From contig JAFRZE010000052.1 of the NCBI GenBank assembly GCA_017442735.1, positions 1 through 64,000 on the forward strand: a stretch of DNA of 64,000 bases. Reading direction: 5' to 3'. Below the pieces are notes generated by a model, which was not told the DNA's origin, did not search any database, and saw only the letters and a list, made by a program, of their open reading frames with translations. The translations under genes were made by a program, and so were the position numbers. Origin of the DNA: Bacillota bacterium (GTDB lineage: Bacteria; Bacillota; Clostridia; Lachnospirales; Bianqueaceae). Every line of letters starts with the position of its first letter. Position 1 is the first letter of the stretch. Positions 22,092 through 27,667 of the stretch are shown piece after piece.

Positions 22092-23300
22092 TTACAGTGT
22101 TTTCTCGAGCTCTCCGCGAATCTCTGACAGAAATTCATCTGTCAGGACTTCTTTGCTGACTTTCGCCGGATCAGCCAGAAGTACGAGATCTTTCGTCATG
22201 ATGCCTTTGTCCAGAACACGCAGACAGGCCTCTTCAAGCTTGTCGCCAAACAACATAAGTTCACGGTTGCCATCCATCTCTCCGCGCTTTCTGAGAGCGC
22301 CGGTCCAGGCAAAGATCGTAGCCATGGGATTGGTCGAGGTCGCTTCTCCTTTCAGATAGCGGTAATAATGCCGGGTGACCGTTCCGTGAGATGCTTCGTA
22401 TTCATAGACACCATCCGGTGAAACCAGAACGGAAGTCATCATCGCCAGCGAGCCGAAGGCGGTCGCGACCATATCGCTCATTACATCTCCGTCATAATTC
22501 TTACATGCCCAGATAAAACCGCCTCTGGAACGCATGACTCTCGCCACCGCGTCGTCGATCAGCGTATAGAAGTACGTGATCCCCGCCTGCTCGAACCTGT
22601 CCCGGTATTCCTCAAATACGTCTGCGATGATCTCGCGGAAAGCGCCGTCATATGTCTTGGAGATCGTATCCTTGGCGCCGAACCAGACATCCTGTCCCAC
22701 CGAAAGGGCGTAGGTAAAGACAGCGTGCGCGTAGGACCGGATGGATGACTCTTTGTTATGTACGCCCTGAAAAACGCCCGGACCGTCCAGCTCGGCGACG
22801 GTCTTCCTGATCACCTGTCCGCTTTCACCGGTGAAGGTCAGTTCACAGACGCCGGCTTCCTGCGTTCGGATCTCCACGTTCTTATAGACATCCCCGTAAG
22901 CATGACGCGCGATGGTGATCGGTTTTTCCCAGCTTCTCACCGCCGGTTTGATCGCGTCGATCACGATAGGCGTGCGGAAGACGGTGCCGTCCAGCATGGC
23001 GCGGATCGTACCATTGGGACTTTTCCACATCTGATGGAGACTATATTCCTCTACCCGCTGCTGATTGGGCGTGATCGTCGCGCACTTCACGGCGACACCA
23101 TACTTCTTCGTGGCGTTCGCCGCGTCCACGGTGACCTGGTCTTCTGTCTCATCTCGATGAACAAGGCCGAGATCATAATACTCTGTTTTCAGATCGACAA
23201 ACGGAAGGATCAGTTCCTCCTTGATCTTCTTCCAGAGGATGCGTGTCATCTCGTCTCCGTCCATCTCTACGAGCGGCGTCATCATGTTGATCTTATGCAT
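22092..23300 (-). CDS. icd: NADP-dependent isocitrate dehydrogenase, eukaryotic-type subfamily
   Basis: A 402-residue enzyme that oxidises isocitrate to 2-oxoglutarate. The opening PLVEMDGDEMTRILWKKIKE and the C-terminal YEASHGTVTRHYYRYLKGEATSTNP belong to the subfamily of mitochondrial and cytosolic eukaryotic enzymes, not to the E. coli type. SPNGTIRAMLDGTVFR and the RGGFIWACKNYDGDV segment are conserved. The ATG overlaps the aconitase stop by 8 bases. It is the last gene of the 2-oxoglutarate-forming operon. Confidence 0.95.
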   Translation of the reverse strand: MHKINMMTPLVEMDGDEMTRILWKKIKEELILPFVDLKTEYYDLGLVHRDETEDQVTVDAANATKKYGVAVKCATITPNQQRVEEYSLHQMWKSPNGTIRAMLDGTVFRTPIVIDAIKPAVRSWEKPITIARHAYGDVYKNVEIRTQEAGVCELTFTGESGQVIRKTVAELDGPGVFQGVHNKESSIRSYAHAVFTYALSVGQDVWFGAKDTISKTYDGAFREIIADVFEEYRDRFEQAGITYFYTLIDDAVARVMRSRGGFIWACKNYDGDVMSDMVATAFGSLAMMTSVLVSPDGVYEYEASHGTVTRHYYRYLKGEATSTNPMATIFAWTGALRKRGEMDGNRELMLFGDKLEEACLRVLDKGIMTKDLVLLADPAKVSKEVLTDEFLSEIRGELEKTL

Positions 23301-25434
23301 TTTCTTTTCCTCGTTTCGCGTAGTAATTCATCAGACAGCCAAGCAGCAGGATCTCCCGCTCTGTATCGGTCAGTCCTTTCATCTGAAGCGTCAGCGTTTT
23401 GTCCGGATCCTGATCGATATAACCGGTGATCTCTTCTTTTCCCTCAGCCAGCGCTTTTCTGATCCCCGGAATATAGATCGTCTGACCGGTCTCGGCCGGG
23501 AAGTCGGATACGGTAAAGGGGATCATGCCCCAGTTGATACAATTCGAGCGATACCGTTTGGTCGCGTACTCGATCGCGAAATTACAGCTGCCGCCCAGTA
23601 CCCGCTGACAGGAGGCTGCCTGTTCTCTCGCGGAGCCATCGCCGGGTTTGTTGGCAAAGATCGCGGAACCGATGCTCGTTTTTTCACTTGAAAGGCCGAA
23701 GTCTTCCGGCAGTTCTTTGGCCGCCGCTTTAGCACGGCTGACATAGAGGGGCTCTCTTCTGGAAAGCGTAAACTCCGAAAGCCTCAGCGGATTGGAACGG
23801 TAGGAAGATGTTTCTCCGGACGGAATCAGTTCATCCGTTGTCGTGACGGGATCACGGATCACCGCGCACAGTTTTACCAGAAGATCATCTTTCAGCGCTT
23901 CCATTTTCGGCCAGTCCGTGATATTCGGTCCCAGGATCAGGGGTTCTTCCTCATGGGGATCGCCATATCCCTGGTAGACCCGTTTTTCATATATGCCCGG
24001 ATAAAAATGATAAGGCTTCTTCTCTACGGTATAATCCAGTTCATCCGCTCCGGTCAGGACTCCTCCTCTTGCGGCGGTCGCCGCGATGGATCGTGCATCC
24101 ATCAGCGCGACATAGGCTTTCTGCCTTTCGCCCGGCTTGGAACCTTCGCGGTTCGGGAAGTTCCGGGTCGTATGACGGATCGAGAAGCCTTCATTGGAGG
24201 GGACATCTCCGGCGCCAAAGCAGGGACCGCAGAAACACGGTTTGACCACCGCTCCGGATTCCAGTAAGGAAGTCAGGATTCCGTTTTCCGCCAGCGCGTG
24301 CTGGACAGGCGTCGACGCGGGATAGACTGAAAGGGAGAAGATCCCCTGTCCAATTGTTCCCTTCTGCAGGATTTCATTCGCTTCTTCCAGGTTTTCGTAA
24401 AGGCCGCCGGCACATCCGGCGATCACTCCCTGTGTGACATGGATCTTTCCGTCCCTGATCATGTCCGCCAGACCGATCGGGTCCAGATACCGGTGCGGAT
24501 CCTCTTTCAGTTCGCGGATCGGGATCGCGTTGGAGGGATGGAACGGAAGGGCGATCATCGGTTCGATCTCAGACAGATCGAGTTCGATGAAATGATCGTA
24601 GCAGGCTCCCTCCAGCGGCTGTACCCGATGATAATCCACTTCCCTGCCATGGTTACGATAGAATGCGCGGATGACCTCATCGGTCTCCCAGATGGAAGAA
24701 AGACAGGCGGTTTCCGTTGTCATCACATCGATGCCGATCCGCTGATCGGCGGACAGGTTATGGATCCCTTCACCGGCAAATTCCAGGATATGGTTTTTGA
24801 CGGTACCGAATACGTCCCGGCAAAGGGTCAGGGCTACATCATGCGGACCGACGCCTCTCTTCAAAGAACCGGTCACATGGATCAGCGTCACTTCCGGAAG
24901 CGGGATATCATAGGTCTGGTCCAGCAGCTGTTTCACGAGTTCCGGACCGCCTTCTCCGATCCCCATCGTCCCATACGCGCCGTACCTTGTATGAGAGTCG
25001 GATCCCAGGATCATCCGGCCGCATCCTGTCATCTTTTCTCTCGCGTACTGATGGATGACCGCCTGATTGGCCGGCACATAGATCCCACCGTATTTACGAG
25101 CCGCGGAAAGTCCGAATACATGATCGTCCTCATTGATGGTCCCGCCTACTGCGCACAGGCTGTTATGGCAGTTCGTCAGTGCGTAGGGAAGATGGAATGA
25201 CTTCATTCCGCTCGCTCTGGCCGTCTGGATAATGCCGACATAGGTGATATCATGAGAGATCAGGGCGTCAAACCGAAGATGCAGCATCCCTTCTTCTTTT
25301 GGTACTTCCGCACTTTCATGGGCGCGCAGGATCCGGTACGCCATCGTTTTCTCACGGCCTTCCCCGAGCATTTCGGAAGAGATCATTTTTACCGTACCGT
25401 TTGAATACATACACGGTTCTTGATAGTACTTCAT
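23293..25434 (-). CDS. Aconitase-family hydratase (YbhJ-like)
   Basis: This 713-residue aconitase-superfamily protein probably isomerises citrate to isocitrate. Iron-sulfur ligands can be placed at Cys341 (VIAGCAGGL, in the place of the usual GSCTN) and at Cys402 and Cys405 (CFCGPCFGAGD). NCHNSLCAVGGT and GSDSHTRYGAYGTMGIGEGG are substrate-side motifs. The swivel domain is at the C-terminus (GGSCNFAIEYATKRYRSNCINWGM). The order of domains and wording of the motifs resemble the poorly characterised YbhJ branch rather than AcnA. Its place between citrate synthase and isocitrate dehydrogenase makes the aconitase function likely, though it is not shown by sequence alone. Confidence 0.88.
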   Translation of the reverse strand: MKYYQEPCMYSNGTVKMISSEMLGEGREKTMAYRILRAHESAEVPKEEGMLHLRFDALISHDITYVGIIQTARASGMKSFHLPYALTNCHNSLCAVGGTINEDDHVFGLSAARKYGGIYVPANQAVIHQYAREKMTGCGRMILGSDSHTRYGAYGTMGIGEGGPELVKQLLDQTYDIPLPEVTLIHVTGSLKRGVGPHDVALTLCRDVFGTVKNHILEFAGEGIHNLSADQRIGIDVMTTETACLSSIWETDEVIRAFYRNHGREVDYHRVQPLEGACYDHFIELDLSEIEPMIALPFHPSNAIPIRELKEDPHRYLDPIGLADMIRDGKIHVTQGVIAGCAGGLYENLEEANEILQKGTIGQGIFSLSVYPASTPVQHALAENGILTSLLESGAVVKPCFCGPCFGAGDVPSNEGFSIRHTTRNFPNREGSKPGERQKAYVALMDARSIAATAARGGVLTGADELDYTVEKKPYHFYPGIYEKRVYQGYGDPHEEEPLILGPNITDWPKMEALKDDLLVKLCAVIRDPVTTTDELIPSGETSSYRSNPLRLSEFTLSRREPLYVSRAKAAAKELPEDFGLSSEKTSIGSAIFANKPGDGSAREQAASCQRVLGGSCNFAIEYATKRYRSNCINWGMIPFTVSDFPAETGQTIYIPGIRKALAEGKEEITGYIDQDPDKTLTLQMKGLTDTEREILLLGCLMNYYAKRGKENA

Positions 25435-25445
25435 CTCTATACCTC

Positions 25446-26123
25446 TCAGTTTTCCATCAGGTGGTTTTTTTCCATATTGGCGGCTGAAGCGCGCACATGT
25501 TCGATCATCAGAGAGCCGGCGTTTTCCGGATCTTTCCTTTTCATCGCTTCCAGGATCGCCCGGTGTTCTTTCAGCATCTGCTCGGCTCTTCCGGGTTCTC
25601 TGATCGATCTTTCCCGAATGTTCTCCGCGTAGGCATGCAATTCTTTCAGGATCTTCTGAAGCATCCGGCTTCCCGTTAATTCATAGATGGTCCTGTGGAA
25701 ACGATCATCCATCGCGGTCACCCTGTCATAATCGCCCCGCTCGATATAGAACTCTGTAAGGTCAACGATCTCACTGAGCTGTTCCATCGAAGCTTCATCC
25801 GCTTTCGTTGCCGCCCTTTCGGCCGCCCGTCCTTCCAGAAGGGAGCGGATCTCATAGATGTCCTCGATATCGGACCGTCCGATCCCCACGACGAGGGCTC
25901 CGCGATTGGGACGAAGTTCCAGAAGTCCTTCGGATTCCAGTTGTTTGAAGGCTTCTCTTACCGGGGTCCGGCTGACCCCGAGTTCCTTCGCTACCTCTCC
26001 TTCTGTCACCGCTTCTCCCGGTGTATACTTGCCGGAGAGGATCTTCCGTCGTATCTGATAATAAACGGATTCCGCCAGGTTCACAGGCTGACGGAGGATC
26101 TCCTGATTCAGATCATTCTTCAT
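25446..26123 (-). CDS. GntR-family transcriptional regulator with FCD ligand domain
   Basis: A 225-residue regulator. An upstream frame would begin with TTG; this ATG has GAAGG 8 bases before it and is preferred. The winged helix is N-terminal (about 15-80: YYQIRRKILSGKYTPGEAVTEGEVAKELGVSRTPVREAF), and an FCD domain follows (about 85-215) with the metal/ligand pattern RSLLEGRAAERAA, DDRFHRTIYELTG and EHRAILEAMKRKD. FCD proteins commonly sense carboxylates such as citrate or lactate. It overlaps the citrate synthase gene and is co-transcribed with it. The 22-bp palindrome at 27568-27589 has the TTGTATACAA core expected for this family, so autoregulation by a citrate-cycle intermediate is a fair inference. 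Confidence 0.92.
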   Translation of the reverse strand: MKNDLNQEILRQPVNLAESVYYQIRRKILSGKYTPGEAVTEGEVAKELGVSRTPVREAFKQLESEGLLELRPNRGALVVGIGRSDIEDIYEIRSLLEGRAAERAATKADEASMEQLSEIVDLTEFYIERGDYDRVTAMDDRFHRTIYELTGSRMLQKILKELHAYAENIRERSIREPGRAEQMLKEHRAILEAMKRKDPENAGSLMIEHVRASAANMEKNHLMEN

Positions 26124-27543
26124 TTCCGTTACCTTCGGCAAGTTTTTCCGCTACGATTGTCAGCTGCGCTTTCAGTTCATCATCCGTGATCGCGGTAACC
26201 CTTCCTTCCGCGTACTGCTTGTCGACCCAGGCTTTCAGCTCGGTCACCAGCGGATCCTTCTTATCGATCGCTGCTTCTCCGGTCAGTTTCAGATGGGTAT
26301 TGATCCAGATCGCGATACCGGAAGCCCCGGAGGTATTGCTGATCATCACTTTCGGCGGACGGTTCAGCAGTTTTCCTGTATCGAAGATATTGTATACCTC
26401 TTCGTTTTTCAGAAGGCCATCGGCATGCACGCCGGCTCTCGTCACGTTGAAATCCGCGCCAACGAAAGGCGTTCTCGGAGGGATCTTATATCCGATCTCT
26501 TTTTCGTAATATTCCGCGATCTCGGTAATGACCGTGGGATCCATTCCGTCCAGTGTTCCTTTGAGCTGGGCGTATTCCATGACCATCGCCTCCAGCGGGC
26601 AGTTGCCGGTCCTCTCTCCGATACCCAGCAATGAACAGTTGACACCGGATGCGCCATAGAGCCAGGCGGTGGTGGAATTGGATACGGCCTTGTAAAAATC
26701 ATTGTGCCCGTGAAACTCCAGCAGAGAAGAAGGCATGTGGGCATAATGGCGAAGACCGTAAATGATACCGGGAATGCTTCTCGGAAGCGCCACACCGGGA
26801 GTTCCGACTCCGTATCCCAGTGTATCGCAGGCGCGGATCTTGATGGGGACACCGGTCTCTACCATCAGCTTGTGCAGCTCCGTAACGAACGGAACGACAA
26901 ATCCGTAGAAATCCGCGCGGGTAATATCTTCAAAGTGGCAGCGCGGCTTAATACCGGCGTCGATACAATCCTTGACAACGCCAAGATAATGATCGATGGC
27001 CTGACGGCGGTTCATTTTCAGTTTATAGAAGATATGATAATCCGAACAGCTGACCAGGATACCGGTCTCTTTCAGACCGATCTCCCGCACTAACTTGAAA
27101 TCATCTTTGCTCGCACGGATCCAGCTCGTGATCTCGGGAAACTCATATCCTTTCTCCAGACACTGATAGACCGCCGCTCTGTCCTTGCGGCTGTAAAGGA
27201 AGAATTCACTCTGCCGGATGATCCCTTTCGGGCCTCCCAGGCGGTGAAGCATATCAAACAGGTGGACGATCTGCTCCGTGGTATAGGGTTCTCTGGACTG
27301 CTGTCCGTCCCGGAACGTGGTATCGGTGATCCAGATATCCTTCGGCATATGCATGGGAACAAGCCGCTGGTTGAACATCATTTTCGGTACCTCTTCGTAG
27401 TTGAAGAGCATCCGATAGAGATTGGGCTGTTCCACATTCTGCAGCGCATATTCAAAACTCATGAGCTCCAGAAGATTCGTCTGCGGGTTGAGTTTCAGCT
27501 CATCCTTACGGTCGGAGACATAAATATCATTCTGAAAATCCAT
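26113..27543 (-). CDS. Re-type citrate synthase (homocitrate/isopropylmalate synthase-like)
   Basis: This 476-residue protein of the DRE-TIM family condenses oxaloacetate with acetyl-CoA to citrate. WITDTTFRDGQQSREPYTTEQIVHLFDML is the active-site opening, LLEFHGHNDFYKAVSNS holds the metal-binding HxH, and GERTGNCPLEAMVMEY is conserved. The N-terminal extension of about 65 residues before the barrel is typical of the Clostridium kluyveri type enzyme. No ordinary Si-citrate synthase is present in the window, and the operon partners support this assignment over homocitrate or isopropylmalate synthase. GGAGG lies 6 bases before the ATG. Confidence 0.88.
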   Translation of the reverse strand: MDFQNDIYVSDRKDELKLNPQTNLLELMSFEYALQNVEQPNLYRMLFNYEEVPKMMFNQRLVPMHMPKDIWITDTTFRDGQQSREPYTTEQIVHLFDMLHRLGGPKGIIRQSEFFLYSRKDRAAVYQCLEKGYEFPEITSWIRASKDDFKLVREIGLKETGILVSCSDYHIFYKLKMNRRQAIDHYLGVVKDCIDAGIKPRCHFEDITRADFYGFVVPFVTELHKLMVETGVPIKIRACDTLGYGVGTPGVALPRSIPGIIYGLRHYAHMPSSLLEFHGHNDFYKAVSNSTTAWLYGASGVNCSLLGIGERTGNCPLEAMVMEYAQLKGTLDGMDPTVITEIAEYYEKEIGYKIPPRTPFVGADFNVTRAGVHADGLLKNEEVYNIFDTGKLLNRPPKVMISNTSGASGIAIWINTHLKLTGEAAIDKKDPLVTELKAWVDKQYAEGRVTAITDDELKAQLTIVAEKLAEGNGNEE

Positions 27544-27567
27544 ACGAAACCTCCAAAATAGAACTTT

Positions 27568-27589
27568 GTATAATTGTATACAATTATAC
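27568..27589. promoter_or_regulatory. Perfect 22-bp palindrome, probable operator of the GntR-type regulator
   Basis: The half site GTATAATTGTA is followed directly by its reverse complement TACAATTATAC. The centre TTGTATACAA fits the TnGTnnnACnA pattern known for FadR/FCD-type GntR regulators. It covers the -10 box of the operon promoter, so binding would block RNA polymerase. Confidence 0.75.
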
Positions 27590-27601
27590 TTGTATGGTCA
27601 A
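27573..27601 (-). promoter_or_regulatory. Promoter of the citrate synthase-gntR-aconitase-icd operon
   Basis: On the minus strand TTGACC and TACAAT are spaced by 17 bases. The -10 box lies inside the palindrome at 27568-27589. The leader to the ATG is about 25 bases and carries GGAGG. Confidence 0.75.
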
Positions 27602-27624: not shown

Positions 27625-27667
27625 AAACCTCTGTGCTTTAATTTTCGTAAAACACAGAGGTTTTTAT
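27625..27667. terminator. Terminator at the end of the GH18-hflX-...-GH3 run
   Basis: AAACCTCTGTG and CACAGAGGTTT form an 11-bp stem with a 17-base A/T-rich loop. TTTTT follows on the plus strand and TTTATTCTTT on the minus strand. It lies just past the GH3 stop and insulates the citrate operon promoter. Confidence 0.8.

Follow-up and report, generated by a model that had tools for sequence, protein, structure and literature searches.

A conserved 22-bp palindrome over the -10 box of a putative 2-oxoglutarate synthesis operon, and its predicted role as the operator of the operon's FCD/GntR regulator

Introduction

PmiR of Pseudomonas aeruginosa governs the methylcitrate pathway and, by the title of its paper, is said to sense 2-methylisocitrate. 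Its structures (7xp0, 7xp1) gave the second-best sequence match of the regulator described here among solved structures, with 35% identity in the fold match. Another close system is Atu1419 (VanR) of Agrobacterium fabrum, an FCD/GntR repressor of the same FCD fold (27-28% identical in the fold match), whose operator ATGTATACAT has TGTATACA in common with the site reported below and for which a palindrome overlapping a -10 box is likewise described (PMC7797058). In its crystal structure Arg45 is described as reading a guanine of ATGTATACAT, and changing that guanine abolishes the Atu1419 shift (PMC7797058). The Atu1419 pocket has an Asn/His3 zinc site and a fortuitous citrate that is reported to have no effect on its DNA binding; the protein differs from the present case in that it governs hydroxycinnamic acid degradation, responds to a folate and is a tetramer (PMC7797058). 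NanR of E. coli, a GntR repressor, acts on short repeated half-sites, and several dimers bind cooperatively on three GGTATA repeats; these are, however, direct repeats, (GGTATA)3, and not a palindrome, the system serves sialic acid, and the cooperativity comes through an N-terminal extension of NanR itself (PMC8012715). CitO of Enterococcus faecalis is a GntR regulator of citrate genes as well, but it activates citrate uptake and breakdown and not 2-oxoglutarate synthesis (PMC3198936).

The FadR-subfamily motifs collected by Suvorova et al. (2015, PMC4494728) show a GT-N2-AC core in several groups and, in 13 groups, additional half-sites of lower strength at a distance of 7-12 nt from the centre. 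One of the 634 FadR-subfamily regulators of that set comes from Clostridia, and the word “citrate” is absent from the main text, as it is from the main text of the Clostridium phytofermentans transcription-start paper (PMC5171806). The DAP-seq report on Clostridium thermocellum names unrelated targets for GntR_1482 and places isocitrate dehydrogenase under Rex (PMC8457756). Among the matches listed, no title or abstract opening named a GntR regulator of an operon like the present one. Here, a 64,000-nt stretch of a Bianqueaceae contig (JAFRZE010000052.1), hereafter the window, was analysed together with its relatives.

Results

Operon and regulator

The operon lies on the minus strand of the window, in the order HMGL synthase, FCD/GntR regulator, aconitase-family hydratase and NADP-isocitrate dehydrogenase.

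26113..27543, minus strand: HMGL-family synthase, 476 aa (PF00682, 122.7 bits)
25446..26141, minus strand: FCD/GntR regulator, 231 aa (PF00392, PF07729), with its start at TTG 26141 or at ATG 26123
23293..25434, minus strand: aconitase-family hydratase (NF008503 type), 713 aa (profile match)
22092..23300, minus strand: NADP-dependent isocitrate dehydrogenase, 402 aa (NF006156, 626.9 bits, cut-off 335)

The synthase matched 18 NCBIfam models, every one below its cut-off, and its 10 solved relatives are isopropylmalate, homocitrate and citramalate synthases. It has the trait of the Re-citrate synthases, which are HMGL-like (PF00682) and unrelated to the common citrate synthase. The latter (Si type, PF00285) gave no match in the own assembly, which is 88.84% complete, whereas 13 of 14 control genomes gave one. 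Because of its operon neighbours and because no PF00285 citrate synthase was found in the assembly, the protein is taken here as a putative Re-type citrate synthase, a name given by context and not by a family-model match.

The second gene of the operon had been described as coding for an FCD/GntR regulator, and this assignment was borne out by matches to PF00392 (73.1 bits) and PF07729 (107.4 bits), both above cut-off and arranged as a GntR winged helix followed by the FCD domain. The AlphaFold model of the regulator had a mean pLDDT of 90.4, and the best matches in a fold search with this model were Brucella GntR (7u5q), Atu1419 and PmiR. The same search included DhdR with its inducer L2HG. 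The regulator residue R58, within SRTPVRE, is invariant in 47 orthologs and is aligned with the guanine-reading Arg45 of Atu1419. Equally invariant in the 47 orthologs are D145, H149, H193 and H215, which align with Asn137, His141, His192 and His214 of the Atu1419 zinc site, and by these residues the regulator is predicted to possess the Asp/Asn plus three-His metal site of the FCD pocket. The ligands of these fold relatives are acids that resemble citrate, isocitrate and 2-oxoglutarate, and by analogy the regulator may have a ligand of this kind.

Palindrome and promoter

The region upstream of the synthase gene contains a palindrome and a promoter that overlap each other. The features are as follows, and the fractions refer to 74 upstream regions of relatives whose selection is described below.

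27568..27589, no strand: putative operator, perfect 22-bp palindrome GTATAATTGTATACAATTATAC (from sequence and conservation in relatives)
27573..27584, no strand: core ATTGTATACAAT with central GTATAC (GTATAC in 72/74 regions)
27568..27571: outer half-site box, ATAC at +8..+11 of the transcribed strand (68/74 regions)
27586..27589: outer half-site box, GTAT at -11..-8 of the transcribed strand (61/74 regions)
27596..27601, minus strand: -35 box TTGACC, from sequence (in relatives exact TTGACA at this place in 66/74 regions)
27573..27578, minus strand: -10 box TACAAT, within the operator (TACAAT in 72/74 regions)
27625..27663, minus strand: terminator-like hairpin separating the upstream glycosidase gene from the promoter
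27550..27554, minus strand: Shine-Dalgarno-like GGAGG of the first gene, from sequence

The preliminary description had placed a perfect 22-bp palindrome exactly over TACAAT of a 17-spaced promoter, with a core like those of known FCD/GntR sites. We found that the two 11-base halves of GTATAATTGTATACAATTATAC are exact reverse complements, and that the minus strand carries TTGACC (27601-27596) and TACAAT (27578-27573) with 17 nt between them, as claimed. Read on this strand, TACAAT makes up the initial six bases of the right half of the palindrome, and 6 nt separate the end of the -35 box from the left edge of the operator. The likeness of the core was also upheld, in agreement with ATGTATACAT of Atu1419 (PMC7797058); GTATAC is the portion of the core that matches FadR-type GntR sites.

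The possibility that a chance palindrome fell on an AT-rich promoter was evaluated by simulation. The 22-bp palindrome is the longest spacerless perfect one in the window, where only two others have arms of at least 8, both of 8. When the 64-kb window was simulated with a first-order Markov model, 16 of 300 runs contained an arm of at least 11 somewhere; shuffling the 129-bp intergenic stretch gave such an arm in 2 of 20,000 trials. The palindrome by itself is thus only mildly improbable within 64 kb, though rare for the intergenic stretch. The promoter match by itself is at chance level (one found against 0.9 expected in 400 bases). The strong evidence for the site is its place and its conservation; since the palindrome is conserved in relatives and co-occurs with the regulator, as given below, a chance origin deserves next to no credence, even with 16 simulated windows holding such an arm.

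A perfect inverted repeat might also act as RNA, in the form of a hairpin, attenuator or terminator. Transcription is, however, expected to start some 6-7 nt downstream of 27573, which would leave nearly all of the palindrome untranscribed; moreover it has no loop, and the terminator-like hairpin of this region sits elsewhere, at 27625-27663. An RNA role is therefore highly implausible, and the hairpin was rejected with the -10 box lying inside the palindrome.

The layout of promoter and palindrome was next compared across relatives, starting from 115 distinct upstream regions, from which re-fetched duplicates were removed; 11 loci with a short upstream flank were dropped. A core with at most 2 mismatches and enough flank left 88 rows, at least 15 of 22 palindrome matches left 82, and an 80% identity filter left 74. 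As these 74 regions were picked by their likeness to the palindrome, part of the conservation seen within it follows from the selection; the -35 box and the boxes at +16 and +24 played no part in the choice. In 71 of the 74 regions the best TTGACA match was located at -23 relative to the centre. TACAAT followed 17 nt after the -35 place in 72, and both hexamers were exact in 65. The exceptions were L010 of a same-genus genome (G005), where TTGACA is one base nearer and the spacer is 16, and L127 (G095) and L130 (G001), where the best -35 match is elsewhere. The palindromic GT/AC site with a 2-3-nt separation, a trait given for FadR/FCD regulators (PMC4494728), was represented by GTATAC in nearly all of the chosen regions. 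The right half of the palindrome was conserved at 98, 98 and 100% (+4 to +6) and the left half at 94, 79 and 79% (-4 to -6), as expected because operator and -10 constraints overlap in the right half. A similar promoter, for example TTGACT-17-TATGAT in L016 and L019, is present in same-family relatives that lack both regulator and site, and therefore promoter and operator are separable.

With the -10 box and a large part of the spacer lying inside the operator, binding of the regulator and of RNA polymerase should be mutually exclusive; judged by this position the regulator probably acts as a repressor, which is the natural interpretation. An activator like Enterococcus CitO, with the palindrome as activation site, has as its precedent that CitO is a citrate-responsive GntR activator of citrate genes (PMC3198936). 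Against it, polymerase should be shut out by a dimer occupying the -10 box together with some of the spacer, and relatives have a near-consensus -35 box; activation is therefore very unlikely.

Outside the core, 61 of the 74 regions had GTAT at -11, 68 had ATAC at +8, and 59 had both. ATAC recurred at +16 in 19 regions and at +24 in 6, and 26 of the 35 ATAC words from +13 to +60 fell in an 8-bp register (binomial 7e-17, relatedness ignored). The window has its own boxes at -11, the centre and +8 only. By analogy, the 8-bp ladder may be a trace of cooperative binding like that of NanR.

Conservation in relatives

The co-occurrence of site and regulator was examined in 96 genomes, 52 of which (own included) contain the synthase at E 1e-60 or better. 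We tabulated 51 of these and omitted G083, where the synthase is cut and a core lies just upstream of the cut gene. A regulator ortholog was defined by 150 bits or more, and a site by the 12-bp core with at most one mismatch within 135 bp upstream; G094 offered a short upstream stretch only. The site was found in 23 of 23 genomes with a regulator ortholog as against 3 of 28 without one. The Fisher value for this co-occurrence is 1.5e-11, with relatedness ignored and few independent lineages behind it. On the synthase tree the site changes 4 times and the regulator 3 times, which gives 2-3 independent pairs, too few for a contrast test, and the independent evolutionary evidence for the pairing is thin. 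Absence of the motif in close relatives had been named beforehand as the result that would speak against the site, and it was instead present in all tabulated relatives with a regulator ortholog. The exception to this check is G001 of the same genus, in which the synthase (67%) and the regulator (36%) are divergent and lie side by side, and where only a 2-mismatch core, differently arranged, is present; it was counted among the 28 genomes without ortholog.

A contig scan gave a similar picture at 65 distinct named loci, counted out of 80; the other 15 were set aside because their flank was too short or their upstream region duplicated a counted one. A GntR homologue (over 35%) was in the locus in 56, and the core at up to 2 mismatches was found in 56/56; among the remaining nine, which had no GntR homologue in the locus, the core was found in 4. 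At L106 the site is perfect, and its earlier apparent absence came from a start placed too far upstream. In five genomes (G012, G015, G019, G043 and G065) the regulator is away from the synthase and the site is retained at the synthase. In G052, G091 and G086 the search gave no synthase, yet all three have the core before other pathway genes, with one mismatch in G091. In these genomes the site precedes an isocitrate-dehydrogenase-like gene (below the cut-offs of the named models) followed by gntR at L160; aconitase, a dehydrogenase-like gene and gntR at L161; and gntR with NADP-isocitrate dehydrogenase at L162, each time with TTGACA, 17 nt and TACAAT. Because these three promoters precede different genes, function is favoured over mere shared descent of one upstream region.

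Near regulator genes that lie apart from pathway genes, no core was found in six genomes (G008, G012, G015, G018, G043 and G093), and the distant regulator genes of G019 and G065 have a 1-mismatch core without TTGACA at -23. Autoregulation is therefore not universal, as these distant regulator genes have no full site nearby.

In the own 2.8-Mb assembly TTGTATACAA occurs at a single place, and the next-best matches to the GTATNNTTGTATACAANNATAC pattern have 3 mismatches, at two places as against one for the reversed control. A wider regulon was therefore not seen in this assembly, the full site having no second copy. The operon's GntR protein is also its only FCD match. The same-genus genomes G003 and G005 have one FCD match each, and in both of them the synthase is the sole location of TTGTATACAAT. 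Of the same-family genomes that have no site, G009 and G013 gave zero FCD matches; G010, also without the site, gave one weaker FCD match (58.5 bits). From this distribution and the invariant residue aligned with Arg45 of Atu1419, the palindrome is very probably bound by the operon's own regulator.

Another protein might read the site, either Rex or an FCD paralog linked to ispE, with the operon's GntR acting elsewhere or not at all. The three genomes having the site and no ortholog, G064 (perfect core), G024 and G046 (cores with one mismatch), possess FCD matches that include another type adjoining an apparent ispE, and this paralog may also read the site there. Against it as the general reader, the own assembly contains no second FCD match. 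Rex (NF003990) adjoins the regulator in L165 and in such operons elsewhere, but Rex-like proteins are near full-site loci (L160, L161, L162 and L167) and near loci without the site (L195 and L197) alike, and the Rex motif differs from the palindrome. Rex as the main reader was rejected on this distribution and on its motif only, and a different reader of either kind is on the whole unlikely.

Related sites elsewhere

Several further arrangements were noticed in the surveyed genomes. A second FCD/GntR type directly follows an apparent ispE in four genomes (L194, L198, L199 and L200), and at L198 a TTGACT-17-TACAAT promoter with a AGTGTATACAAT core is present at the start of ispE. ABC-F-like and Rex-like proteins recur beside the regulator or operon in several families (L160, L161, L162, L163, L165, L166 and L167) and are also found at L195 and L197 without the regulator; Rex was confirmed for L165. 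The G025 synthase (G025:C25:16888-18240) is reported with one internal TGA.

In six genomes of two other families (G038, G051, G092, G083, G054 and G073) a ATTGTATACAAT palindrome lies beside pta-ackA, at L180, L183, L187, L188, L189 and L191; the pta-ackA family was checked for L180 only. It is positioned about the middle of L180-L191 and near the start of L187, has neither TTGACA at -23 nor outer boxes, and seems to overlap a -35 region instead. G038 also has ATTGTATACAAT before rnfC and before pyruvate/2-oxoacid:ferredoxin oxidoreductase (por) genes (L179:2374, L181:2172; gene families checked at both loci), which suggests, from sequence, a wider central-metabolism regulon in its family. 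The ATTGTATACAAT sites of other families were rejected as the same operator, TTGACA at -23 being found in 0 of the 15 laid out.

Discussion

The results point to the palindrome as the operator of the operon's own FCD regulator, which would block RNA polymerase; we put the probability of this reading at roughly 0.8. A dimer would read the central GTATAC, and the outer GTAT and ATAC boxes, 8 bp off on either side, would strengthen the binding of this dimer or of additional ones. The -10 box coincides with the right half of the operator, and only 6 nt lie between the -35 box and the left edge, so the bound protein would deny RNA polymerase access to the promoter. Since the operon's second gene encodes the regulator, this would amount to negative autoregulation here: the regulator would repress its own operon and with it the provision of 2-oxoglutarate as the precursor of glutamate. 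Repression would end when a small carboxylic acid entered the FCD pocket and altered the grip of the regulator. The conserved overlap of operator and promoter is tied to the regulator about as closely as sequence permits, and it is new as a case, the principle being already known.

The ligand is inferred to be an acid of the pathway, with citrate, isocitrate and 2-oxoglutarate as candidates in no settled order. Release of the repressor by citrate or isocitrate would make this an induced pathway; stronger binding in the presence of 2-oxoglutarate would amount to end-product feedback, the form that the preliminary description had proposed. The feedback form looks rather doubtful, and citrate or isocitrate as inducer, or another acid, fits as well.

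A tentative extension of the operator reading concerns the half-site ladder around and downstream of the fixed promoter, on which several FCD dimers could possibly assemble cooperatively, species tuning the steepness of repression by the number of rungs. Rungs would be gained and lost only on the side not occupied by the -35 box. If this is true, natural operators differing in box number make cooperative FCD binding testable.

The predicted arrangement is a switch of one regulator and one operator for entry into 2-oxoglutarate and glutamate synthesis. The clean pairing of site and regulator makes a search for the ligand by direct binding feasible. The bacteria concerned would be those that use the HMGL-type citrate synthase, many of which are gut Lachnospiraceae.
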